Source: Bernardetia sp.
GTDB taxonomy: Bacteria; Bacteroidota; Bacteroidia; Cytophagales; Bernardetiaceae
Assembly (NCBI GenBank): GCA_020630575.1
Contig: JAHDBD010000012.1
Location: 1-64,000, forward strand
DNA: 64,000 nt
Direction: 5' to 3'
This document shows, in pieces, positions 43,332 through 55,131 of the stretch. Made by a program: the position numbers and the translations under genes. Numbering within the stretch: position 1 is the first letter of the stretch; each line of letters begins with the position of its first letter. Below the pieces are notes generated by a model. That model did no database searches. It saw only the letters and a program-made list of their open reading frames with translations, and had not been told where the DNA came from.

Positions 43332-44429
43332 ATGATACAAGAAGATATTTTGCCATTAAAAGGCACAGACCATATAGAATTTTATGTAGGAAATGCAAAG
43401 CAAGCAGCCTATTATTATCAAGCAGCTTTTGGCTTTGAAGTAGTTGCGTATGCAGGACAAGAAACAGGTGTTCGTGACCGTTCATCTTATGTTTTGCAGC
43501 AAGGAAAAATCCGTTTTGTTCTTACTTCACCAATGAGTAGTGATTCTCCTATTGCAGAACACATCAGAAAACATGGAGATGGTGTAAAAGTATTAGCTCT
43601 TTGGGTAGATGATGCTGAAAAATCATATTATGATACAATGAGTAGAGGTGCAAAATCAGCCTTAGAACCTACTCGTTTATCAGACGAACATGGAGAAGTT
43701 GTTGTTTCAGGAATTCATACCTACGGAGAAACAATTCATAAATTTGTAGAAAGAGGAAATTATAAAGGCGCATTTATGCCAGGTTACAAGCCTAAAAAAT
43801 CATTTTTTAAGGTAAAATCAACAGGCTTGAAATTTATTGATCATTGTGTTGGAAATGTAGAGCTTGGAAAAATGAATGAATGGGTAGAGTTTTACGAGAA
43901 AGTAATGGGATTCAATCTGCTCGTAACTTTTGATGATAAAGATATTTCTACTGAATATACAGCTTTGATGTCAAAGGTAGTTTCAAATGGAAATGGCTAT
44001 GTCAAATTTCCAATCAATGAGCCTGCTGATGGACGTAAAAAATCACAAATCGAAGAATATATTGAGTTTTATGAAGGTGCAGGGGTTCAGCATATTGCCA
44101 TTGCAACAGATGATATTTTGGAAACTATTGAGGATTTGCGTAGCCGTGGAGTAGATTTCCTTTATGTTCCAGATAATTATTATGAAGACCTTGCTGAAAG
44201 AGTTGGTGATATTAAGGAAGATATGGAAGAACTCAAAAAGCTAAATATTTTAGTAGATAGAGATGATGAAGGTTATTTATTACAAATATTTACTAAACCA
44301 ACAGGTGACCGTCCAACTGTTTTCTTTGAAATTATTCAACGCCAAGGAGCAAAATCATTTGGAAAAGGAAATTTTAAAGCTCTTTTTGAAGCTATAGAAA
44401 GAGAACAAGAACTAAGAGGTAACTTATAA
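43332..44429 (+). CDS. hppD: 4-Hydroxyphenylpyruvate dioxygenase
   Basis: Converts 4-hydroxyphenylpyruvate to homogentisate in tyrosine catabolism. The 365 residues hold two vicinal-oxygen-chelate domains. The iron ligands lie in FIDHCVGN (His, about 173), GVQHIAIATDD (His, about 254) and FFEIIQRQGA (Glu, about 338). The C-terminal GKGNFKALFEAIEREQELRGNL is standard. Degenerate copies of this gene's 3' end recur inside the lanthipeptide array that follows, so it marks the boundary of the duplicated unit. A strong terminator follows. Confidence 0.96.
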   Translation: MIQEDILPLKGTDHIEFYVGNAKQAAYYYQAAFGFEVVAYAGQETGVRDRSSYVLQQGKIRFVLTSPMSSDSPIAEHIRKHGDGVKVLALWVDDAEKSYYDTMSRGAKSALEPTRLSDEHGEVVVSGIHTYGETIHKFVERGNYKGAFMPGYKPKKSFFKVKSTGLKFIDHCVGNVELGKMNEWVEFYEKVMGFNLLVTFDDKDISTEYTALMSKVVSNGNGYVKFPINEPADGRKKSQIEEYIEFYEGAGVQHIAIATDDILETIEDLRSRGVDFLYVPDNYYEDLAERVGDIKEDMEELKKLNILVDRDDEGYLLQIFTKPTGDRPTVFFEIIQRQGAKSFGKGNFKALFEAIEREQELRGNL

Positions 44430-44455
44430 CTATATGATGATTTTAACATTTTAAT

Positions 44456-44492
44456 TGAAAAAGCCTATAATTCAAAATTATAGGCTTTTTTT
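44456..44492 (+). terminator. Terminator of hppD
   Basis: AAAAGCCTATAATT pairs with AATTATAGGCTTTT; T run follows. It separates phhA-hppD from the lanthipeptide array. Confidence 0.9.
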
Positions 44493-44576
44493 GTACCATT
44501 TAAGTGTTTTTTTTGCTAAAATTTAAACTTTGATGTTAGTATAGAGTAATGTTTTTTTGTATAAAGATAAAAAAAA

Positions 44577-44700
44577 TTTGCATTAACAAATAAAGCTACT
44601 ATATTTGTGTATCAGTTGTATGGTATAATACTAATGCCATAAAATAGGGAGCTATTCCGAAAATCCTTATAAATAGAGTAGGAAAACAACATCAATTTTA
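44577..44700 (+). promoter_or_regulatory. Lanthipeptide cassette 1 promoter and conserved 5' leader
   Basis: TTTG (44577-44580), 19 bases, TATATTTG (44600-44607): a full-consensus Bacteroidota promoter. The following ~95 bases, up to the precursor start, are conserved in all four cassettes, including a palindromic GTATAATAC core, TTCCGAAAATCC and AGAGTAGGA. The TCCT in the middle can pair with an AGGA on either side, which would allow two alternative hairpins. Confidence 0.8.
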
Positions 44701-44714
44701 TCTCTTCACAGATT

Positions 44715-44867
44715 ATGAAAACAAACAAAAAATTAAAACTGAATACTAAAAAAATAGTCATTTTATCTAAGGAGCAGCAAGCTTCTGTACAAGGTGGTAT
44801 GGTGTATACACAATATAAAACTTGTCGTCAATGTCCTCCTCCAGTAGATTTGTCAGATTTTGATTAA
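44715..44867 (+). CDS. Lanthipeptide precursor 1
   Basis: A 50-residue peptide. The leader MKTNKKLKLNTKKIVILSKE continues to the Gly-Gly at residues 27-28 (SVQGG) and is nearly identical in the three other precursors. The KLKLN...KKxVxxLS pattern is that of class I lanthipeptide leaders in Bacteroidota. The 22-residue core, MVYTQYKTCRQCPPPVDLSD then Phe-Asp, has two Cys, two Thr and one Ser: enough for at most two thioether rings. It has its own promoter and terminator but no lanC directly behind it, so it would rely on the cyclases of cassettes 2 and 3 and on the LanB at 49172. Confidence 0.85.
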   Translation: MKTNKKLKLNTKKIVILSKEQQASVQGGMVYTQYKTCRQCPPPVDLSDFD

Positions 44868-44890
44868 TAAATTAATAATTTTAATACTTA

Positions 44891-44928
44891 TCAAAAAAGC
44901 TCGTAATTCTGAATTATGGGGTTTTTTG
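44891..44928 (+). terminator. Terminator of cassette 1
   Basis: CTCGTAATTC pairs with GAATTATGGG (one A-C mismatch avoided by a G-U pair), flanked by A and T runs. Confidence 0.65.
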
Positions 44929-45011
44929 TAATATTAAAGTAGCTTTTGTTCCATAAATCAAAATTATATGTTATTGTAAAGTAATATTTGCCGTACAAAA
45001 CTAAAAAAAAG

Positions 45012-45139
45012 TTTGTGTTTAAAAATAAAGCTACTATATTTATGCATCAGTTGTATGGTATAATGCTAATACAATAAAACATAGGAGTATTCTGAAAATC
45101 CTTATAAACAGAGTAGGAAAAAAACACCAATTTTATTTT
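45012..45139 (+). promoter_or_regulatory. Lanthipeptide cassette 2 promoter and conserved 5' leader
   Basis: TTTG (45012-45015), 19 bases, TATATTTA (45035-45042): the same layout as the other cassettes with one change in the last base of the -7 box. The conserved leader (GTATGGTATAATGCTAATAC, then GAAAATCCTTATAAACAGAG) follows. Confidence 0.75.
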
Positions 45140-45146
45140 TCAAAAC

Positions 45147-45332
45147 ATGAAAACGAACAAAAAATTAAAACTTAACACTAAAAAAGTAGTGATTTTGTCT
45201 AATGAGCAGCAAGATTCTGTACAAGGTGGTACATTTTTGACTAGAAACTGTCCAAGAACATGGTTTGAATATACTTGTGATAGAAGACACTGTAACTACA
45301 CTACTAGACCTGAATGTCCTGTGGAAGCATAA
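45147..45332 (+). CDS. Lanthipeptide precursor 2
   Basis: A 61-residue peptide. The leader differs from precursor 1 by a handful of residues and ends VQGG at 25-28. The 33-residue core (TFLTRNCPRTWFEYTCDRRH, then CNYTTRPECPVEA) has four Cys and six Thr and no Ser, so up to four methyllanthionine rings are possible. It is followed by a hairpin terminator and then by a LanC gene with a non-ATG start. Confidence 0.88.
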   Translation: MKTNKKLKLNTKKVVILSNEQQDSVQGGTFLTRNCPRTWFEYTCDRRHCNYTTRPECPVEA

Positions 45333-45352
45333 ATTTTCTTTTTTCAAGTTTC

Positions 45353-45384
45353 AAAAAACGAAGTTTTTATACTTCGTTTTTTTT
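45353..45384 (+). terminator. Terminator between precursor 2 and lanC1
   Basis: AAAACGAAG pairs with CTTCGTTTT, followed by a T run. It lies between the precursor and the cyclase gene, so lanC1 would be expressed by read-through. Confidence 0.8.
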
Positions 45385-45403
45385 TACCTTTTTTAATAAT
45401 ATT

Positions 45404-46519
45404 TTGAAAATATTCAATAATTTACCTGTTAATTTTTATCAAGATTTTGGATATCTAGGTAATTTAGGTAGTCTGAGTTTGTTATCAAACTTTGATACAG
45501 AACTAACAGAAACTATGTTAGCTAAATTCTATGAGCAGATAGAAGAAGCTCCTTATGTTCAACCTGATATATATGGTTTATCTAGTTTAGGTATTTTGCT
45601 TAATTATCTAAGTAAAGTAGATAAAAATCGCTTTGAAGAGTATAACGAAGAGTTTGTTAATGATTTTTCTGATGTAATAGTAGAAGCTAGTCAAGTTATG
45701 GCAGAAAAGCTAGAATATGATACATTCACAGGTCTAGTATGTACACTAAATTTCTTTTTGCTGACAGAACAACTAGAAAATACCATTAAGACAGCAGATT
45801 TACTTCAAAAAGTAACACAAGAATTGTATGAAAAAAATGACTTAAATAATTTAGGTCTTGCTCATGGAGTTTGTGGAATCATTGCTATTTTGGCTAAGAC
45901 AATTCTTTTTTTAGAAAAAACAGAAACTACAAACGAGATTTTAGTAAAACATAAAGATACATTAGAACTCATTACAACTCATGTAATCAAACAAAAGGGT
46001 AAAATAGGTAATTTCTGTTTTCCTTATAGTGTGGGAGGAAAAACTAGCCGTTTAGCTTGGTGTTATGGCGATTTTTCTGTTTGCATTGCTCTCACTTGGG
46101 CTGCATTAGTTTTGCCTAATAAAAAGGAAATAGATGAGGTAGTAAAAGATACAATTAATAATGCTATCAATATAAAAGATACAGAGAGGCTTTTTATCAC
46201 AAATAAAGATACAAATGAATTTGATTTAGGACTTTGTCACGGTGTGTCTGGAGCATATTTAGTTTTTAAAAGATTGTATAAATTTTACCCTATTCAGGAA
46301 TTAGCAGAAGAAATAAAAAGACTAAAAGAAGAATTAGATAAAGAAGTTGAAAAAGAAATAGAAAATATTAAATTTCCTGTATCAATCCAGCAAGAGCCAT
46401 TAGTTTTTGAATGGAATACAGATTTATCTTTTTTGAATGGTTTATCTGGATTTTTGGCTGCTTACCACGATGATGAACTAGTAAAAGGCTGGGATGCTCC
46501 TCTTTTAACTGATTTTTAA
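45404..46519 (+). CDS. lanC: LanC-like lanthionine cyclase 1
   Basis: Zinc enzyme that joins Cys to dehydrated Ser/Thr to form (methyl)lanthionine rings. The LanC marks are intact: LAHGVCGIIAIL, the zinc Cys in AWCYGDFSVCIALTWAA, and the Cys-His pair in GLCHGVSGAYLVF. No ATG precedes these in a sensible place. A frame open from an ATG at 45314 would overlap the precursor gene and translate the terminator hairpin; alignment with lanC2 (FSDLPVHFYQQF against FNNLPVNFYQDF) points to a TTG at 45404. About 371 residues. Close paralogue of the lanC at 47186. Confidence 0.88.
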   Translation: MKIFNNLPVNFYQDFGYLGNLGSLSLLSNFDTELTETMLAKFYEQIEEAPYVQPDIYGLSSLGILLNYLSKVDKNRFEEYNEEFVNDFSDVIVEASQVMAEKLEYDTFTGLVCTLNFFLLTEQLENTIKTADLLQKVTQELYEKNDLNNLGLAHGVCGIIAILAKTILFLEKTETTNEILVKHKDTLELITTHVIKQKGKIGNFCFPYSVGGKTSRLAWCYGDFSVCIALTWAALVLPNKKEIDEVVKDTINNAINIKDTERLFITNKDTNEFDLGLCHGVSGAYLVFKRLYKFYPIQELAEEIKRLKEELDKEVEKEIENIKFPVSIQQEPLVFEWNTDLSFLNGLSGFLAAYHDDELVKGWDAPLLTDF

Positions 46520-46738
46520 ATTATGCTTTACTTAAAAGCATAAATCTTTTTCCATTAAAGCCCATGATGAATATCACAATTAACAAAGTTTATAATTATT
46601 TGATGATTTTCATTCTCCATTAAAAGTAATCTGTTTATATCTCTTTCACCTGTTTTGAGTTAATGAGATGCTTTTTTATGAAAAAGACAAAATTATTCGT
46701 TAGTATAATGTAATTTTTTTTTAAAAAAAGATATTTTT
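46520..46738. other. Region between lanC1 and cassette 3, with short hppD-downstream remnant
   Basis: Around 46587-46612 the sequence TTATAATTATTTGATGATTTT matches the bases just after the hppD stop (44426-44446) with few changes. The GTTAGTATAATGTAAT at about 46701 likewise matches the region upstream of the cassette 1 promoter (44537-44552). These are traces of the duplicated unit. Confidence 0.6.
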
Positions 46739-46864
46739 TTTGGATTTGTAAATAAAGCTACTATATTTGTGTATTACTTTTATTGTATAATACCAATAGG
46801 TAAAATTATAGGAGACCTCCGAAAATCCTTATGAATAGAGTAGGAAAATAACATCAATTTTATT
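46739..46864 (+). promoter_or_regulatory. Lanthipeptide cassette 3 promoter and conserved 5' leader
   Basis: TTTG (46739-46742), 19 bases, TATATTTG (46762-46769), then the conserved leader with GTATAATACCAATA and CCGAAAATCCTTATGAATAG. The leader is slightly diverged in its first part. Confidence 0.8.
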
Positions 46865-46876
46865 TCTTTATAAATT

Positions 46877-47116
46877 ATGAAAACGAACAAAAAATTAAAA
46901 CTTAACACTAAGAAAGTAGTCATTTTATCTAATGAGCAGCAAAATGCTGTTCAAGGTGGTGCACTATCACAAGTTGAATGTGCTACTCGTGCAGGACTTT
47001 GCGAATCAAATATTGTTTGTCCTACAAGAGGTTGTGGTACTGGTGGTGGTAATACTCAAGGTTGCGATCCTTATCACACAAGAGTGATAGAATGCGTGTT
47101 AACAGTTAGTTGTTAA
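46877..47116 (+). CDS. Lanthipeptide precursor 3
   Basis: A 79-residue peptide. The leader ends NAVQGG at 28. The 51-residue core has seven Cys (in VECATR, GLCESN, IVCPTR, GCGTGG, QGCDPY, IECVLT and a final SC) and several Ser/Thr, the most ring-rich of the four; a Gly-rich GTGGGNTQG hinge separates two halves. Whether rings, disulfides or both form is open. It is followed by a strong terminator and then lanC2. Confidence 0.88.
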   Translation: MKTNKKLKLNTKKVVILSNEQQNAVQGGALSQVECATRAGLCESNIVCPTRGCGTGGGNTQGCDPYHTRVIECVLTVSC

Positions 47117-47124
47117 AAACTTTT

Positions 47125-47158
47125 AAACGGAACTTTATGAAAGTTCCGTTTTCTTTTT
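47125..47158 (+). terminator. Terminator between precursor 3 and lanC2
   Basis: AACGGAACTTT pairs perfectly with AAAGTTCCGTT around ATG; T run follows. A near copy lies after precursor 4 (49007-49040). Confidence 0.85.
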
Positions 47159-47185
47159 TACTTAATTATTATTATTCCATTTTTT

Positions 47186-48304
47186 GTGTTACACTTATTT
47201 TCAGACTTACCTGTTCATTTTTATCAACAATTTAGTTACTTAAGAAATTTAGGTAGCCTAAGTTTGATAGCAAATTTTGACATAGAAAAAACCGAAGAAC
47301 TACTTGCCAAATTTTATGAGCAAATAGAAGAAGCTCCTTATATCCAGCCCGATATTTATGGCTTATCTAGTTTGGGTATCTTGCTTAATTATTTGACTAA
47401 AGTAGATGAAAATCGTTTTAGAGAATATGAAGACGAATTTATTGATGATTTTTCTCTTGTTATGTTAGAAGCTAGTCAAGCTATGGCAGAAAGGTTAGAG
47501 TATGATACATTCACAGGTTTGGTATGCCTGTTAAATTTCTTTATACTAACAGAACAAGAAGAAAATACTCTAAAAGTAACTGACCTACTTCAAAATGTTA
47601 CGCAAAAACTCTATGAAAAAAATGAATTAAATAATCTAGGTATTTCTCATGGAGTATGTGGAATTGTTGCTATAATGGCTAAGAGTATTATTTTTTTAGA
47701 AAAAAAACAAACTACAAACAATATTTTAGTAAAGTATAAAGATACCTTAGAACTCATTACAAATCATGTAATAAATCAAAAGGAAAAAATTGGTAATTTC
47801 TGTTTTCCTTATACTATTGGAGGGGAAAATAGTCGTTTGGCTTGGTGTTATGGTGATTTGTCTGTTTGTATTGCACTTACTTGGGCTGCACAAATACTGC
47901 CTAATAAAACAGAAATTGACGAAATCATAAAAGATACTATACATAATGCCATCAATATAAAGGATACTGATAGATGTTATAAAACTCAAGAGCAAACCAA
48001 AGAGTTTGATTTAGGACTTTGTCATGGTGTTTCTGGTGTCTATTTGGTTTTTAAAAGACTGTATGAGTTTTATCCTAGTCAAGAATTAGATAAAGAAATA
48101 AAAAGATTAAAAAAAGAATTAGATAAAGAAATTGAAAAAGGTATAGAAAATATTATATTTCCTGTATTAATAAAGCAAGAGCCCCTAACTTTTGAGTGGA
48201 AAACAAATTTATCTTTTTTAGAAGGTTTATCTGGATTTTTAGCTGCTTATCATGATGATGAGCTTGTAAAAGGTTGGGATGCTCCTCTTTTAATGGATTT
48301 CTAA
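47186..48304 (+). CDS. lanC: LanC-like lanthionine cyclase 2
   Basis: Close paralogue of lanC1, 372 residues, with all zinc-site motifs (SHGVCGIVAIM, AWCYGDLSVCIALTWAA, GLCHGVSGVYLVF). The start is a GTG at 47186, straight after the terminator of precursor 3. Most of the length aligns without gaps to lanC1 (PDIYGLSSLGILLNYL, WDAPLL at the end), so the pair arose by duplication; both appear functional. Why two cyclases serve one LanB is unclear: they may prefer different cores. Confidence 0.9.
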   Translation: MLHLFSDLPVHFYQQFSYLRNLGSLSLIANFDIEKTEELLAKFYEQIEEAPYIQPDIYGLSSLGILLNYLTKVDENRFREYEDEFIDDFSLVMLEASQAMAERLEYDTFTGLVCLLNFFILTEQEENTLKVTDLLQNVTQKLYEKNELNNLGISHGVCGIVAIMAKSIIFLEKKQTTNNILVKYKDTLELITNHVINQKEKIGNFCFPYTIGGENSRLAWCYGDLSVCIALTWAAQILPNKTEIDEIIKDTIHNAINIKDTDRCYKTQEQTKEFDLGLCHGVSGVYLVFKRLYEFYPSQELDKEIKRLKKELDKEIEKGIENIIFPVLIKQEPLTFEWKTNLSFLEGLSGFLAAYHDDELVKGWDAPLLMDF

Positions 48305-48646
48305 ATTATATTTTACTCATTTATATGAAGTTGTATTAAAATGAAAAAGTATTTTGGATACCCTAGAATATAAAAAAATCATTTTAAGTAGTTTCACTAT
48401 AAATTGATTTTAAAGCTATTCAAAAAAAGAGAGCCAAATTATTTGTAAAATAAATTTTCAATGCTCTTTTTGAAGTAATAGAAAGAGAGCAGAAACTAAG
48501 ATATAATCTATAATTATTTTGATAATTTAATTAAAATAAATATAATATCATTACAAGTTTTTTATACTTTATAATAAGATTTATGTGTTTTTAGATGTTT
48601 TATTATGATTATATCGTGATTTTTTTGTGAAAAAATGAATGAAAAA
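48305..48646. other. Region between lanC2 and cassette 4
   Basis: AT-rich, 342 bases. It contains the hppD pseudogene fragment listed separately (48406-48513); the rest shows no gene. Confidence 0.5.
48406..48513 (+). pseudogene. Degenerate copy of the hppD 3' end
   Basis: About 108 bases align with the last codons of hppD (44322-44429) at roughly 75-80% by eye: GCTCTTTTTGAA and ATAGAAAGAGA are identical. Read in the hppD frame it gives AKLFVK-stop-IFNALFEVIEREQKLRYNL against AKSFGKGNFKALFEAIEREQ, ending at the same stop. It marks the left edge of the duplicated unit that produced cassette 4. Confidence 0.8.
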
Positions 48647-48772
48647 TTTGCATTGGTGGATAAAGCTACTATATTTGTGTTTCAGATGTATGGTACAATA
48701 CTAATACAAGAAAGCACAGGAGTATTCCGAAAATCCTTAGAATAGAGTAGGAGCACAATGTCAATTTTATAT
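48647..48772 (+). promoter_or_regulatory. Lanthipeptide cassette 4 promoter and conserved 5' leader
   Basis: TTTG (48647-48650), 19 bases, TATATTTG (48670-48677), then GTATGGTACAATACTAATAC, TTCCGAAAATCCTTAG and GAGTAGGAG, matching the other three leaders. Confidence 0.8.
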
Positions 48773-48782
48773 TAAAAAAAAC

Positions 48783-48986
48783 ATGAAAGCAAACAAAAAA
48801 TTAAAACTCAACACTAAAAAAGTAGTCATTTTATCTAACGATCAGCAAAATGCTGTTCAAGGTGGAGGAGGTACTATGCCATCAATAAAAAATATATGTG
48901 TTTATACTGAATTGTGTGTTGCTTCAGTTAAAAATCCGTGTATTCCTGCGACTGAATATAATTCATGCCGTTGTCCAGAGATGTAA
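48783..48986 (+). CDS. Lanthipeptide precursor 4
   Basis: A 67-residue peptide. The leader has MKANKK and LSNDQQNAVQGG, otherwise as in the others. The 39-residue core begins with two more Gly (GGTMPSIKNICVYTELC) and has five Cys, the last three in NPCIPA and NSCRCPEM. It is followed by a terminator and then the broken lanC3, so it may depend on the other cyclases. Confidence 0.87.
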   Translation: MKANKKLKLNTKKVVILSNDQQNAVQGGGGTMPSIKNICVYTELCVASVKNPCIPATEYNSCRCPEM

Positions 48987-49006
48987 TTCTTTGTGTTATT
49001 TTTTTT

Positions 49007-49040
49007 AACGGAACTTCATGGAAGTTCCGTTTTCTTTTTT
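49007..49040 (+). terminator. Terminator after precursor 4
   Basis: AACGGAACTTC pairs with GAAGTTCCGTT around ATG; T run follows. Homologous to the terminator at 47125. Confidence 0.85.
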
Positions 49041-49059
49041 ATAATTATTCTATTTATTT

Positions 49060-49141
49060 GTATTATACTTATTATCAGATTTACTTATTCATTTTTATCA
49101 AAAATTTAGCTTAGGGTCGTATTCTTTTAACTGATTTTTAA
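49060..49141 (+). pseudogene. Remnant of a third lanC: head and tail fused by deletion
   Basis: Bases 49060-49110 match the start of lanC2 (GATTTACTTATTCATTTTTATC against its GACTTACCTGTTCATTTTTATC; protein LSDLLIHFYQKF against FSDLPVHFYQQF), with the GTG start changed to GTA. Bases from about 49118 match the end of lanC1 (CTTTTAACTGATTTTTAAAT). Roughly 1.05 kb of the gene is missing and the two parts are out of frame. LanB begins 30 bases later, which implies the original order precursor-lanC-lanB. Confidence 0.85.
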
Positions 49142-49171
49142 ATTATATTTTACTTATTACTTATATAGCAA

Positions 49172-52100
49172 ATGGATTATTTTTTCTTACGTAGCCCTTT
49201 ATCTCCTCTTTTTTCAGAAAAACCAGCAGATGAGTTGGCTATTTTTTTATCTTCTCCTGATTTTCAAGATACAGTTCAACAATATGAAGAAGGAAAACTA
49301 AAAGACAAAAAAGTAGAAAAATTTTTACTTTCTAAAGCAAAATATGACTTGCGTTCTCGCTTTAGATGTACTCCTTTTGGAACTTTTGCAGGCATTTTAG
49401 CAGGCAAGCTTTCTTCAAATAATCAAGGTTTCGTTCACCAAGAAATAAAAAAATATCATTTGTCTTTAGATATGTCTGTTTTGGGGGCATGGATAGATAA
49501 ACTGCATCAGATAACTGAATTTTTAGAAGTCCTTACTTTTTACCCAAACAATACACTTTATCAATTTGGAGAAGATAAACGCTATATAGAATCTTATTTT
49601 GAAGGAGAAAAAGCTAGAAAGTATGCCATTTCAAATATAGAATGGAATGAGTATTTGGAGAAAATTATAGAATTTGCAAAAGAAGGTAAAAAAATAACAC
49701 AAATAGCAGAACAGTTGGTAGACGAAGATATTTCCTTAGAAGAAGCAAAAGAATTTATCTTAGAAATTATAGAAGCTCAAATTCTTGTTTCAGATATAGC
49801 TTTAAAAATTACTGGAGAACCTTTTGAAGATATTTTGAGAAGCAAGTTAGGGTTTTATTTAGAAAATAATCCTCAATTAGAAAATAGTGAAAAATATAGT
49901 TTCATAAAAGAATCATTTCATCTTCTGTCAGAACTAAAAGAATATTATCAGAAAAACCATCCCAAAAGTGCTGAGCTATTTGATTTTTCAGAAAAAATCA
50001 AAAGTCTTGAAATTCCTTTCAAATTAAGTTCTTTATTTCAGATGGATACGGTTTTAAAGTTTGAAAATCCATCTCTTCATCATTCTATTAAAGAAGAAGT
50101 AGAAAAAGTAATTGATTTGCTAAAATATGTTTATTCTTATAAAGAAATTTCTACACTAACCTCTTTTAAAGAGGCATTTTCTACTCGTTATGAATCGGCA
50201 GAAGTTCCTTTAATGCAAGTGCTTGACCCAGAAATTGGTTTAGGTTTTCCCTTAAGAAGTCAAGCAAATAATGATAATGCACCTTTATTGAAAGGAATGC
50301 CTCTAAATGGAGGTAGAAATAGCCAAAACCCTTCTCTTCAACAAACAAGATGGACACAGTTTTTACAGAAAAAATTTATAGAAGCTCTTCAAAATAAATC
50401 TTCTGTAATTGAGCTTACTAATAAAGAATTAAAAGATGAAATAGGTTATATTCCTGAAAAATATAGAAATTCCAAAAAGAATAAAAATAATAATACCAAA
50501 AAGAAAGAAGATAATAACATACCCTTCTCATACTCTTCTATGATTACTGTTTTAGCTTCTTCCTCTGAGGCAATTGAGGAAGAAAACTATAAAATAATTC
50601 ATAATGGAACAAATGGTTCTTCTGCTGTTACTCTACTAGGACGTTTTTGTCATGCAGATGCTCAAACAAATGAGTATGTATTGGATTGTATCCAACAAGA
50701 AGAAGAATTATCAGACAAGATTTTTGCTGAAATTGTACATCTTCCAGAAGCTAGAGTAGGAAATGTTATCGCTCGTCCACAACTAAGAAAATATGAAATT
50801 CCGATTGGAGTAAGAACAGCCGAAAATGCAGAAACTATTTCTTTAGATGATATTAGAGTTTCTGTAAGTGATGGAAAAATAAAATTGCGTTCTCTCAAAT
50901 ATGATAAAGAAATTATTCCTAGAATGAGTAATGCTCATAATTATAGCATGACAGAAATTCCAGCGTATCATTTTTTATCTACGTTACAAAACCAAAATGT
51001 TCTAAGTGGACTTCAATTTAGTTGGCAACACTTAAATAATGAACCATATTTGCCTAGAGTAGAATATGAGAAAGTTATTTTGAGTCCTCAAAAATGGGTT
51101 ATTTCTCTCAAAGAAACTAAAATAGATAAAAAAATAAGTACACAGCAGGCTTTAGAAAAGTTGAGAAATTACTTCCAAGATAGAGGTATTCCTAACTGTC
51201 TTACATTTGGACAAGGAGATAATATTTTACCTTTATTTACTGATGATGATATTAATTTAACTCTCTTTTGGCAAGAATTAAAAAAGATGCAACGTATATC
51301 TGTTCAGGAAATGCTTTATAATGAAGATAATTTATTTATTAAAGATGAAGAAGGAAACGGTTATACAAATGAATTTATTATTCCTCATTTATCTCCTTGG
51401 GTAAAATCTGAACAAGAAAGTCAAATTAATACTACTACAAATTTAGATTCTACATTACAAAGAGAATATACTATCGGTTCTGAATGGATTTATTTCAAAA
51501 TTTACTGTGGTGTTAGTACAGCTGATGAATTATTAATACAAAAGTTATTTCCTTTAGCCTCACAGTTATTACAAGATAATACAATTACAGAATGGTTTTT
51601 TATTCGTTATGCTGATCCAGACCACCATTTGCGTATTCGTTTTAAAGGAACAAATGATTTTTACAAAACAGTTATTGAAAAGCTACACGAAAACCTCAAT
51701 GAACTTGTAGACAATAAATCTGTGTGGAAAATTCAAATAGATACTTATCAAAGAGAAATAGAGAGATATGGTTCGAAGAATATGGCAAATAGTGAATTGC
51801 TATTTCATAAAGAAAGTCAGCTAATTTGCACTATTTTACAGAATATAAATGAAGATGATGACTTGCGTTGGAAATTGGCATTTTTGGGAGTAGACAATTT
51901 ACTTACCAATTTTGATTTAGAAATAGGACAGAAAAAACACTTGATGGAAATATTATCAGAAAGTTTTCATAAAGAATTTGGCTTAGAAAACATCAATGAT
52001 ACTAAGATTCTTTCTAAAAGTTACAGAGAAAAACGCCAAACTATTGAAGAAATTATAGAAAACCCTGCTATCTATTCAGAATACAAAGAATTACTGACTC

Positions 52101-52327
52101 ATTATTCTTTATCTATAAAAGAAAATGTAGATAAGGTACTTCAACTCGCTAAAAATAATGAACTAGAAATGAGTTTACCCAATTTGGTAGCCAGTTATAT
52201 ACATATGTTTTTGAACAGATATTTTAGAGCCAATCAAAGAAAACACGAGTGTATAATCTATTATATGTTATTTCAACATTATCGCTCTGCTGAAGCAAAA
52301 AATAAAGCTAGTGTTTTAGCTGATTAA
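49172..52327 (+). CDS. lanB: Full-length class I lanthipeptide dehydratase LanB
   Basis: Dehydrates Ser/Thr in the precursor core by tRNA-dependent glutamylation followed by elimination. The 1051 residues include the N-terminal glutamylation domain (LRSRFRCTPFGTFAGIL near 66-82) and the C-terminal SpaB_C/elimination domain (about 770-1045: EWIYFKIYCGVSTADELL, WFFIRYADPDHHLRIRF, YQREIERYG). An Asn/Lys-rich insert (about 432-452) interrupts the middle. It is one polypeptide, unlike the split dehydratase described for pinensins in another Bacteroidota genus. It is the only LanB in the window and is presumably shared by all four precursors. Confidence 0.93.
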   Translation: MDYFFLRSPLSPLFSEKPADELAIFLSSPDFQDTVQQYEEGKLKDKKVEKFLLSKAKYDLRSRFRCTPFGTFAGILAGKLSSNNQGFVHQEIKKYHLSLDMSVLGAWIDKLHQITEFLEVLTFYPNNTLYQFGEDKRYIESYFEGEKARKYAISNIEWNEYLEKIIEFAKEGKKITQIAEQLVDEDISLEEAKEFILEIIEAQILVSDIALKITGEPFEDILRSKLGFYLENNPQLENSEKYSFIKESFHLLSELKEYYQKNHPKSAELFDFSEKIKSLEIPFKLSSLFQMDTVLKFENPSLHHSIKEEVEKVIDLLKYVYSYKEISTLTSFKEAFSTRYESAEVPLMQVLDPEIGLGFPLRSQANNDNAPLLKGMPLNGGRNSQNPSLQQTRWTQFLQKKFIEALQNKSSVIELTNKELKDEIGYIPEKYRNSKKNKNNNTKKKEDNNIPFSYSSMITVLASSSEAIEEENYKIIHNGTNGSSAVTLLGRFCHADAQTNEYVLDCIQQEEELSDKIFAEIVHLPEARVGNVIARPQLRKYEIPIGVRTAENAETISLDDIRVSVSDGKIKLRSLKYDKEIIPRMSNAHNYSMTEIPAYHFLSTLQNQNVLSGLQFSWQHLNNEPYLPRVEYEKVILSPQKWVISLKETKIDKKISTQQALEKLRNYFQDRGIPNCLTFGQGDNILPLFTDDDINLTLFWQELKKMQRISVQEMLYNEDNLFIKDEEGNGYTNEFIIPHLSPWVKSEQESQINTTTNLDSTLQREYTIGSEWIYFKIYCGVSTADELLIQKLFPLASQLLQDNTITEWFFIRYADPDHHLRIRFKGTNDFYKTVIEKLHENLNELVDNKSVWKIQIDTYQREIERYGSKNMANSELLFHKESQLICTILQNINEDDDLRWKLAFLGVDNLLTNFDLEIGQKKHLMEILSESFHKEFGLENINDTKILSKSYREKRQTIEEIIENPAIYSEYKELLTHYSLSIKENVDKVLQLAKNNELEMSLPNLVASYIHMFLNRYFRANQRKHECIIYYMLFQHYRSAEAKNKASVLAD

Positions 52328-52491: not shown

Positions 52492-53265
52492 GTGATTACA
52501 GTAAAAAACATAAAAAAAGCCTTTAACGGAAAAGAAATTTTGAAAGGAATTAGTGCTGAATTCAAACAAGGCGTTACTAACTTAATAATTGGCTCAAGTG
52601 GAACAGGAAAAAGTGTACTCTTAAAGTGTACAGTAGGACTAATAAAACCAGATGAAGGTTCAATTTTTTATGATGGAAAAAATTTATATGAATCTGACCG
52701 AGAAGAGCAAAGAGCTATACGAGAACAAATAGGAATGCTTTTTCAAGGCAGTGCACTTTTTGATTCCATGACAGTAGAACAAAATGTGCGATTTCCTTTA
52801 GATATGCGTAGTAAAGGAATGAGTGATGCTGACAAATTAGAACGTGTAAATTTCTGTCTGAAAAGAGTTGGTTTAGAAGGCTCAAACGACAAAAAACCTG
52901 CTGAAATTAGTGGAGGAATGATGAAGCGTGTAGGAATTGCACGAGCAATTGTTATGAATCCAAAATACCTTTTTTGTGATGAACCTAACTCAGGACTAGA
53001 TCCACAAACTTCTATCATGATTGATAATTTGATTTTAGAAATCACAGAAGAATACAATATGACAACCATTGTAGTAACTCACGATATGAATTCAGTTATG
53101 GAAATTGGTAAAAACATTGTCTTTTTGAGTGAAGGGCATAAAGAATGGGAAGGAACAAAAGAACAAATTGTACACTCAGATGTAAAATCTTTAAATGATT
53201 TTGTGTTCTCAAACTCGTTAATGGTAGCCTACAAAAAAAGTGAAGAAGAGAGAGCAAATCGATAA
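52492..53265 (+). CDS. ABC transporter ATPase, MlaF-like
   Basis: ATP-binding subunit of 257 residues. Walker A GSSGTGKS (about 36-43), signature ISGGMMKRVGIARA, Walker B YLFCDEPNSGLDPQ and the switch His (VVTHDM) are intact. The sequence FQGSALFDSMTVEQNVRFPL is typical of MlaF/Ttg2A, which drives phospholipid exchange between membranes. The start is GTG. Its usual MlaE permease is not adjacent. I do not take it as the lanthipeptide exporter: it has no membrane or C39 peptidase domain and belongs to another subfamily. Confidence 0.85.
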   Translation: MITVKNIKKAFNGKEILKGISAEFKQGVTNLIIGSSGTGKSVLLKCTVGLIKPDEGSIFYDGKNLYESDREEQRAIREQIGMLFQGSALFDSMTVEQNVRFPLDMRSKGMSDADKLERVNFCLKRVGLEGSNDKKPAEISGGMMKRVGIARAIVMNPKYLFCDEPNSGLDPQTSIMIDNLILEITEEYNMTTIVVTHDMNSVMEIGKNIVFLSEGHKEWEGTKEQIVHSDVKSLNDFVFSNSLMVAYKKSEEERANR

Positions 53266-54287: not shown

Positions 54288-54671
54288 ATGAATCCACCTA
54301 TTTTTTATATAGAAGGAAAAAAATATATTCCAGAAGTTCGTTTTGATTCTACAAAGGGACTTTTAGAGTTTTCGGGGCAATGTTATCACGAATATACAGA
54401 AGAATTTTTTGCTCCTATTTATAAATGGGCGAGTGAGTATTTAGAAGAACCTGCTCGTACGATTACACTAGAGTTCAAGATGAATTATTATAATACAGTT
54501 TGTTCTCGTTGTTTTTTAGAGTTTTTAGAGATGTTTGAAGACTATGCACTCAATCAAGGTGGACAAGTTACAGTAAACTGGTATTATAAATCAAATGACT
54601 ATGATATGATGGAAAGTGGAGAAGATTATCAAGATGATTTAGAGCTAGATATCAATCTTATTTCCCATTAA
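54288..54671 (+). CDS. SiaC-family (DUF1987) regulatory phosphoprotein
   Basis: A 127-residue STAS-like regulator. In Pseudomonas, SiaC is phosphorylated on a Thr by SiaB and dephosphorylated by the PP2C enzyme SiaA. The family pattern is visible: TKGLLEFSGQCYHEYTEEFFAPIYKW, then LEFKMNYYNTVCSRCFLEFLEMFE with the Asn-Thr phospho-site (Thr about 69), then VNWYYKSNDYDMMESGEDY. The usual partner genes are not adjacent, but two membrane PP2C phosphatases lie at 29.4-32.6 kb; a link is only inferred. Confidence 0.88.
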   Translation: MNPPIFYIEGKKYIPEVRFDSTKGLLEFSGQCYHEYTEEFFAPIYKWASEYLEEPARTITLEFKMNYYNTVCSRCFLEFLEMFEDYALNQGGQVTVNWYYKSNDYDMMESGEDYQDDLELDINLISH

Positions 54672-54682
54672 TTTAGAAGCCT

Positions 54683-54714
54683 TTGTTGGTGTTTTAGCGA
54701 AGCGACACCAACAA
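54683..54714. repeat. REP-like palindrome
   Basis: TGTTGGTGT (54684-54692) and ACACCAACA (54705-54713) flank a TTTAGCGAAGCG loop. Long-loop member of the family. Confidence 0.75.
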
Positions 54715-54785
54715 ACACAATTCATTCTTAATAGCTTCTATATATTTATATTTTTTAATCTTTATTTTTTTAATTTATTATTTTT

Positions 54786-55001
54786 ATGAAAAAGTCCGTC
54801 GGAATTATAGTATTAGTTATTGGTATTTTACTTGCTGCTTTTGGTTTTTATCAAAATGAAGCCTCTTCAAAAACACTCTTGAAAATTGCAAATACAGAAA
54901 TTAAGACTGAAAAAAATGCGCCAAGTACAAATCCTCTTATTATTGGAGGTGCAGTTGTAGGTCTTATTGGTGTTGTAGTAATTATTGTTGCTAAAAAATA
55001 A
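54786..55001 (+). CDS. Small two-helix membrane protein (DUF3185-like)
   Basis: A 71-residue protein with two membrane helices (about 4-22 and 50-68), the second Gly/Val-rich, and a short polar loop with TNPLIIGGAVVGLIG. The pattern resembles DUF3185. It is followed by a strong terminator. Function unknown. Confidence 0.6.
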   Translation: MKKSVGIIVLVIGILLAAFGFYQNEASSKTLLKIANTEIKTEKNAPSTNPLIIGGAVVGLIGVVVIIVAKK

Positions 55002-55021
55002 TTTCTATATATTCACATTTC

Positions 55022-55062
55022 AAAGTCTGATTTTTTTCTATAAAAAATCAGACTCTTTTTAT
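55022..55062 (+). terminator. Terminator
   Basis: AGTCTGATTTTTT pairs with AAAAAATCAGACT, followed by T residues. Confidence 0.85.
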
Positions 55063-55131
55063 TTAATTTATAGTAAGTAAATGAGCAAAATAAAATATAT
55101 CTAATAAAAAAATAGAAAGTGAAAATTTAAA

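Follow-up and report, generated by a model that had tools for sequence, protein, structure and literature searches.

The window that we analysed, a stretch of 64,000 nucleotides from Bernardetia sp. (assembly GCA_020630575.1, contig JAHDBD010000012.1; C59 in our numbering), carries a predicted class I lanthipeptide locus. Its genes follow one another on the + strand, between 44.7 and 52.3 kb, in the order lanA1 / lanA2-lanC1 / lanA3-lanC2 / lanA4-(lanC scar) / lanB. They encode four precursors (LanA), two cyclases (LanC) and one dehydratase (LanB), and the scar is the remnant of a third lanC. The array is assembled from lanA-terminator-lanC cassettes, part of which have been replaced between two genomes of the same species. 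We propose that these precursor-cyclase cassettes are exchangeable around one fixed dehydratase, a reading to which we give a probability of about 0.7. The source genome comprises 5.31 Mb in 94 contigs and is 84.5% complete; its AT-rich composition and its genes are in keeping with a member of Cytophagales.

Precursors, enzymes and cassettes of the locus

A preliminary description of this DNA had reported four LanA-like open reading frames (ORFs) with a near-identical Gly-Gly (GG) leader, together with two LanC, both intact, and a LanB of full length. All of these are present, and the ORF listing reproduced both the coordinates given and the location on a single strand. The third lanC had gone unmentioned. 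The assignment to class I is supported by the domains of LanB (PF04738 and PF14028) and LanC (PF05147) and by leaders followed by cores bearing Ser, Thr and Cys; the products are predicted to contain (methyl)lanthionine.

The precursors are LanA1 (44715..44867, 50 aa; leader MKTNKKLKLNTKKIVILSKEQQASVQGG and core MVYTQYKTCRQCPPPVDLSDFD, with 3 Ser/Thr and 2 Cys), LanA2 (45147..45332, 61 aa; 33-aa core with 6 Ser/Thr and 4 Cys), LanA3 (46877..47116, 79 aa; 51-aa core with 9 Ser/Thr and 7 Cys) and LanA4 (48783..48986, 67 aa; 39-aa core with 6 Ser/Thr and 5 Cys). They have a common leader of 28 residues, ending in Gly-Gly, of which 22 positions are invariant. Between the copies, leader DNA is 87-93% identical and core DNA 32-42%, which is the background level; the four cores are mutually unrelated. 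After cleavage at the first GG, the calculated monoisotopic masses of the cores are 2605.17 (LanA1), 4064.83 (LanA2), 5228.37 (LanA3) and 4220.92 (LanA4). A zero-mismatch search of the 5.3 Mb genome for the leader DNA pattern found four occurrences, every one at this locus, so the array is beyond chance. The precursors scored about 17-19 bits with the NCBIfam model lant_leader_L1a (NF038153; cut-off 22) and 16-19 bits with lant_leader_L1b (NF038158; cut-off 27), reaching neither cut-off, and their leader is, by its sequence, a divergent relative of these two. Inspection of the four cores revealed no SxxxCTP(G/S)C, the nisin-type lipid II motif (PMC7268733).

LanB (49172..52327, 1051 aa) matched PF04738 (1.3e-119) and PF14028 (9e-67), each over nearly the whole profile length. 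Since both are matched, LanB has the glutamylation as well as the elimination domain and is complete as a dehydratase. In an alignment with NisB (6m7y), R61, R65, R823, R865 and H1011 were conserved; we take these to be the equivalents of NisB R83, R87, R786, R826 and H961, the numbering having been matched by us. LanC2 (47186..48304, with a GTG start at 47186; PF05147, 2.7e-24) is 77% identical to LanC1 (PF05147, 4e-24). The lanC1 gene is intact, as had been described, but the ATG ORF from 45314 begins within lanA2, and the probable start is a TTG at 45404 (45404..46519). The zinc ligands Cys/Cys/His and the WCYG and CHG motifs are invariant in five sequences of the genus, and a solved LanC-like protein could be aligned across the zinc-site region. 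The ratio of nonsynonymous to synonymous divergence (dN/dS) was 0.18 between lanC1 and lanC2 and 0.12-0.19 across the LanC copies compared, indicating purifying selection. With the catalytic residues of LanB kept, and the LanCs retaining their zinc ligands under such selection, LanB and the two LanCs look able to work. These data support the earlier proposal of one dehydratase and four peptides, with LanB common to all four precursors.

Terminator-like hairpins were found by a hairpin search in the lanA2-lanC1 gap (45353..45382), in the lanA3-lanC2 gap (47125..47151) and after lanA4, ahead of the scar (49007..49031); the stretch holds five hairpins, against 1.2 expected. A promoter-like element of the Bacteroidota type, TTTG-N19-TATATTTG, precedes lanA1 (44577..44607), and pattern matches precede lanA3 (46739..46769) and lanA4 (48647..48677). 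The copy before lanA2 (45012..45042), identified by sequence and alignment, has one mismatch (TATATTTA). TTTG-N19-TAnnTTTG is thus exact at three lanA and has one mismatch at the fourth, at an equivalent position in each. We rejected the TTTG-N-TAnnTTTG pattern alone as a signal, since its 10 occurrences in the window, with 7 expected, are at chance level; the value of the element lies in its repeated placement at the lanA copies. Each lanA would probably form its own transcript, with limited read-through into lanC.

The remnant of the third lanC (49002..49167) was delimited by local alignments to 47121-47239, 46501-46535 and 48286-48327. It joins the terminator and the initial ~40 nt of lanC (up to 49114) to the last ~18 nt and the 3' flank (49123-49167), so that ~1.05 kb of lanC is missing between lanA4 and lanB. 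Upstream of lanA4, furthermore, there is a second copy of the hppD 3' end and flank (48409..48572, a copy of 44325-44503), which indicates that the repeated unit began inside hppD and places its edge here. A simple recent duplication of lanC was considered and rejected, because lanC1 is nearer to the lanC of another member of the genus (G003) than to lanC2; synonymous divergence (dS) between lanC1 and lanC2 is 0.74.

Comparison with a second genome of the species (G059, locus L114) revealed turnover of these units. That genome has three lanA, one lanC, one fewer than the window, and lanB. In a sliding window, identity was 97-99% in the left flank, 57% at lanA1, 74-88% at lanC2 and 95-99.5% at lanB, and the region from lanA1 to lanC2 is a replaced island (57-88%), whereas its flanks and lanB are near-identical (95-100%). 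Two of the G059 precursors have cores unlike those of the window, while lanA4 is nearly the same (97% identity of core DNA); dS between the lanC genes of the two genomes is 0.90, and lanB is open in both. G003 has two lanA, one lanC and a lanB that is 86% identical, and no LanB was present in three other members of the genus (G001, G004 and G005). In our reading, these differences record how lanA-lanC cassettes arose, were lost and were replaced by recombination, with lanB and lanA4 staying fixed next to them, and the cyclases look to have been exchanged jointly with the precursors while lanB stayed. The preliminary description had spoken of shared cyclases. The order lanA2-lanC1 / lanA3-lanC2 / lanA4-(scar), together with the joint replacement of lanA and lanC, suggests precursor-cyclase pairs instead, although sharing could still occur.

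Downstream of lanB, positions 54517-55100 of the window show indels between the two genomes of the species and 80-90% identity within surroundings of 97-99%. The upstream neighbours of the locus, genes for phenylalanine 4-monooxygenase and 4-hydroxyphenylpyruvate dioxygenase, have the appearance of plain catabolic genes and were kept outside the lanthipeptide system.

The DUF805b RNA upstream of the precursor genes

All four lanA genes have in their 5' untranslated region (UTR), 27-30 nt upstream of the start, a copy of DUF805b (RF02914, clan CL00115), a cis-regulatory RNA of Rfam (E 3e-9 to 7e-7). The copies of lanA2 (45082..45119, 40.5 bits), lanA3 (46809..46846, 37.3 bits) and lanA4 (48717..48753, 41.5 bits) exceed the gathering threshold of 35.6 bits, and that of lanA1 (44646..44684, 34.5 bits) falls just below it. 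DUF805b also precedes the lanA of another class I locus, on contig C36 of this genome, and the lanA of G003 and G002.

The copies at the locus match the Rfam family in sequence and in its P1 hairpin. Whereas the structure line of Rfam contains P1 only, compensatory changes allowed us to add a second helix, P2, of three pairs, which uses the 3' GG of AGAGUAGG; with P1 and P2, 97.6% of cells are paired over 24 sequences. The covariation score over these 24 copies was 0.637, against 0.188 after shuffling and no more than 0.15 after sliding. Eleven sequences have GC as the outer pair of P2, another 11 have UA and 2 have GU. GC and UA divide mostly by lineage, so that few independent events bear on P2, whereas P1 varies widely. 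These compensatory changes support the formation by P1 and P2 together of a predicted H-type pseudoknot.

A motif model, run on 79 LanC neighbourhoods (1.34 Mb in all) from other genomes, mainly of Bacteroidota, gave 22 matches (E<0.005). By manual count, 18 of them lie 15-22 nt upstream of a short peptide, the leader of which ends in GG (15) or AG/AAG (3). The density in ten whole genomes, picked for having such a match, was 2.7 per Mb, which corresponds to 3.7 expected in 1.34 Mb. Ten of the 22 matches also exceed the threshold of Rfam's own model, and the motif search is therefore not circular. Five of the eight motif-model matches in the window's genome precede lanA; the other three (L094, L095 and L096, on contigs C80, C67 and C71) precede ORFs of 36-74 aa that have no lanA-like leader.

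We considered the possibility that DUF805b is specific for lanthipeptides and rejected it, since the element is also found upstream of other genes for secreted or surface proteins. Many lan loci are without it: no copy at the gathering score was found at the distant loci of the same order that were scanned, and the motif model had no match at an 18-precursor locus of Chitinophaga solisilvae (L189) or at a 13-precursor locus of a Bacteroidetes metagenome-assembled genome (MAG; L166). The literature searched, which did not cover papers on DUF805 RNA, revealed no link between DUF805b and lanthipeptide precursors.

Export and related systems

The absence of a dedicated exporter, as described before, holds at the locus. 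No C39 domain was found on the contig of the window, and the four C39 domains of the genome are on contigs C31, C44, C94 and C82; two of the proteins that carry them are 738 and 765 aa long. A counterpart of the C31 transporter is present in each of the seven genus genomes (7/7), including members that lack the lanthipeptide locus, and the C31 transporter was rejected as a dedicated partner because it is kept in members without LanB. An ATP-binding cassette (ABC) ATPase next to the locus (52492-53265) was also rejected as the exporter, as it consists of a plain ABC ATPase domain and lacks both a C39 and a membrane domain; it scores similarly to many ATPases, MlaF included. Export and leader cleavage are likely to take place in trans. 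On contig C94, a small Cys-rich GG peptide, MKSLKKKFGKFAISQEKATKVNGGSFRCNTLPECCCPPYIMCNPNQFPEYCNV (L019:6848-7009), is encoded beside a C39-domain protein and an apparent membrane fusion protein, in what looks like another bacteriocin-like locus.

The second class I locus of the genome (contig C36, L016:6265-13337) has a lanA with core QAPAELALTGSRLIHCGSKKVCSHSCKAIVCIPL, a lanC and a full-length lanB, and also ORFs that we named, from sequence reading, erythromycin-esterase-like and luciferase-like monooxygenase. Its core nearly equals that of a Myroides MAG, ALTGSRLLYCGSKPPCTHSCDATVCIPT (L115:6643-6852), the locus of which has two close LanC copies and a split LanB. This core is conserved across orders, in contrast with the hypervariable cores of the window.

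The locus had been presented as a strong candidate for an undescribed one. This applies to the particular locus, but class I LanAs with GG leaders, clusters with several LanA and a cluster with two LanC have been published. Walker et al. 2020 reported GG-leader class I LanAs and multi-precursor clusters in Bacteroidetes, often with a C39 protease in the cluster (PMC7268733), and Marsh et al. 2010 listed clusters of Bacteroidetes that contain two or three LanA, as well as one cluster, in Frankia, that has two LanC (PMC3091789). Like the LxLxKx5L-GG LanAs of Walker et al. (PMC7268733), those of the window occur with a class I LanB and a LanC and have a Lys/Leu-rich leader ending in GG. The leader LKLNTKKVVIL of the window has Thr for the Lys of the motif, however, whereas LKLKKEKIVVL of the C36 locus fits exactly, and the cluster of the window has no C39 protease. 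It also differs from C39/PCAT-associated GG-leader clusters, which have a C39 transporter in the cluster.

LanABC sets of Chryseobacterium (ChmABC) and Runella (RuiABC), likewise from Bacteroidota, gave 7-fold dehydrated peptides with three thioether rings in E. coli (PMC9993889). One refactored precursor was studied for each, while the locus described here has four precursors and two cyclases. The pinensin locus is of the same phylum and also class I, but its LanB is split (PMC7268733), unlike the single protein of 1051 aa found here. The single-protein LanB, which had been put forward as a distinguishing trait, is common: among 58 genome-contig loci with a readable LanB it was full-length in 23 and split in 35.

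Prochlorosins and ProcM (PMC10783134) resemble the present system in their constant GG leader, hypervariable cores and one enzyme for many precursors, and recombination has been proposed as the driver of prochlorosin diversity (PMC10783134). They differ in being class II, with a bifunctional LanM, Nif11-type leaders and no separate cyclase gene to accompany the precursor (PMC10783134). L189 (4189-9347) has many GG-leader precursors (18 in tandem, the cores of which apparently form two families) and a full-length LanB, as does the window in kind, but a single LanC and its own C39 transporter. L166, with 2 LanC, has lanA and lanC interleaved as in the window, and there is no LanB on its contig. 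Hence the kind of locus is already known, and the exchange of lanA-lanC cassettes and the link to DUF805b look new as far as the literature was searched.

Proposed mechanism and alternative explanations

In the mechanism that we propose, each lanA would have its own promoter, with the DUF805b pseudoknot RNA in the 5' UTR, and the terminator after lanA would pass only some of the transcripts into lanC, providing much precursor and little enzyme. LanB would bind the common leader and dehydrate Ser and Thr in the four cores via Glu-tRNA, and LanC1 and LanC2 would close the thioether rings, probably each chiefly on its linked precursor, the products of lanA1 and lanA4 being served by LanC in trans. 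A C39-peptidase ABC transporter, with its gene elsewhere in the genome, would then cleave the Gly-Gly leader and export the peptide. Cassettes would duplicate, vanish (as in the lanC scar) or be replaced through recombination in the conserved UTR-leader flanks, and strains would thereby differ in the peptides that they make, for which an antagonistic (bacteriocin-like) role is most likely. A bolder version, which we regard as doubtful, is that DUF805b is a pseudoknot riboregulator with which Bacteroidota co-activate sets of GG-leader peptide genes, and that the lanA-lanC units under it are mobile matched cassettes with one common dehydratase, strains trading whole units.

Several points weigh against the cassette model. 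The evidence that pairs LanCs with precursors consists of gene order and of the replacement of both together; LanCs are frequently tolerant enzymes, and no lanC adjoins lanA1 or lanA4. As lanC1 and lanC2 are old (dS 0.74), ancient modules may, instead of being imported, have been lost differentially. The C31 transporter occurs in the genus without the locus, so its role in export is putative, and no immunity gene was recognised near the locus. In a genome that is 84.5% complete and in 94 contigs, an exporter, a lanC or a protease could be missing, and the near-identical repeats make misassembly a residual possibility. Finally, the chemistry, products and expression of the locus are predicted.

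We considered the possibility that the locus is an ordinary array with a tolerant LanB and two redundant, tolerant LanCs, in which the second lanC is a gene-dosage duplicate and nothing functional lies behind the cassette pattern. Most multi-precursor relatives have one LanC, L189 with its 18 precursors among them; G059 and G003 each manage with one lanC, and two of the four lanA of the window are without their own. Yet the two LanC proteins differ by 23% and are both under purifying selection, and the lanCs were replaced along with the adjoining lanA cores and not with lanB. We hold this explanation to be a serious contender, at somewhat less than even odds. That the locus is decaying, its scar, missing exporter and divergent cores reflecting loss of function, appears very improbable. 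The lanC scar, the lack of a local exporter and the absence of LanB from G001, G004 and G005 would fit, but the seven remaining genes are all open, lanB is open in both strains with its residues intact, the dN/dS of lanC is 0.12-0.19, and promoter-like and RNA elements are retained at 4/4 lanA.

The products could also be signals or cell-surface or developmental peptides rather than antagonistic bacteriocins, in line with the absence of a recognisable immunity gene nearby, of the lipid II motif from the cores, and with the presence of DUF805b in front of other genes for secreted or surface proteins. Strong core turnover within a species is, however, a typical mark of antagonism that a conserved signal would seldom show, and we judge this role unlikely.

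If the model of exchangeable cassettes is correct, it provides a natural separation of dehydratase and cyclase specificity, one LanB acting on all cores and the cyclase seemingly moving with the core, which would aid the understanding of ring-pattern control and engineering. Furthermore, DUF805b, an orphan candidate RNA, gains a testable class of targets, the lanthipeptide precursors, and the four cores and their relatives represent uncharacterised natural products.

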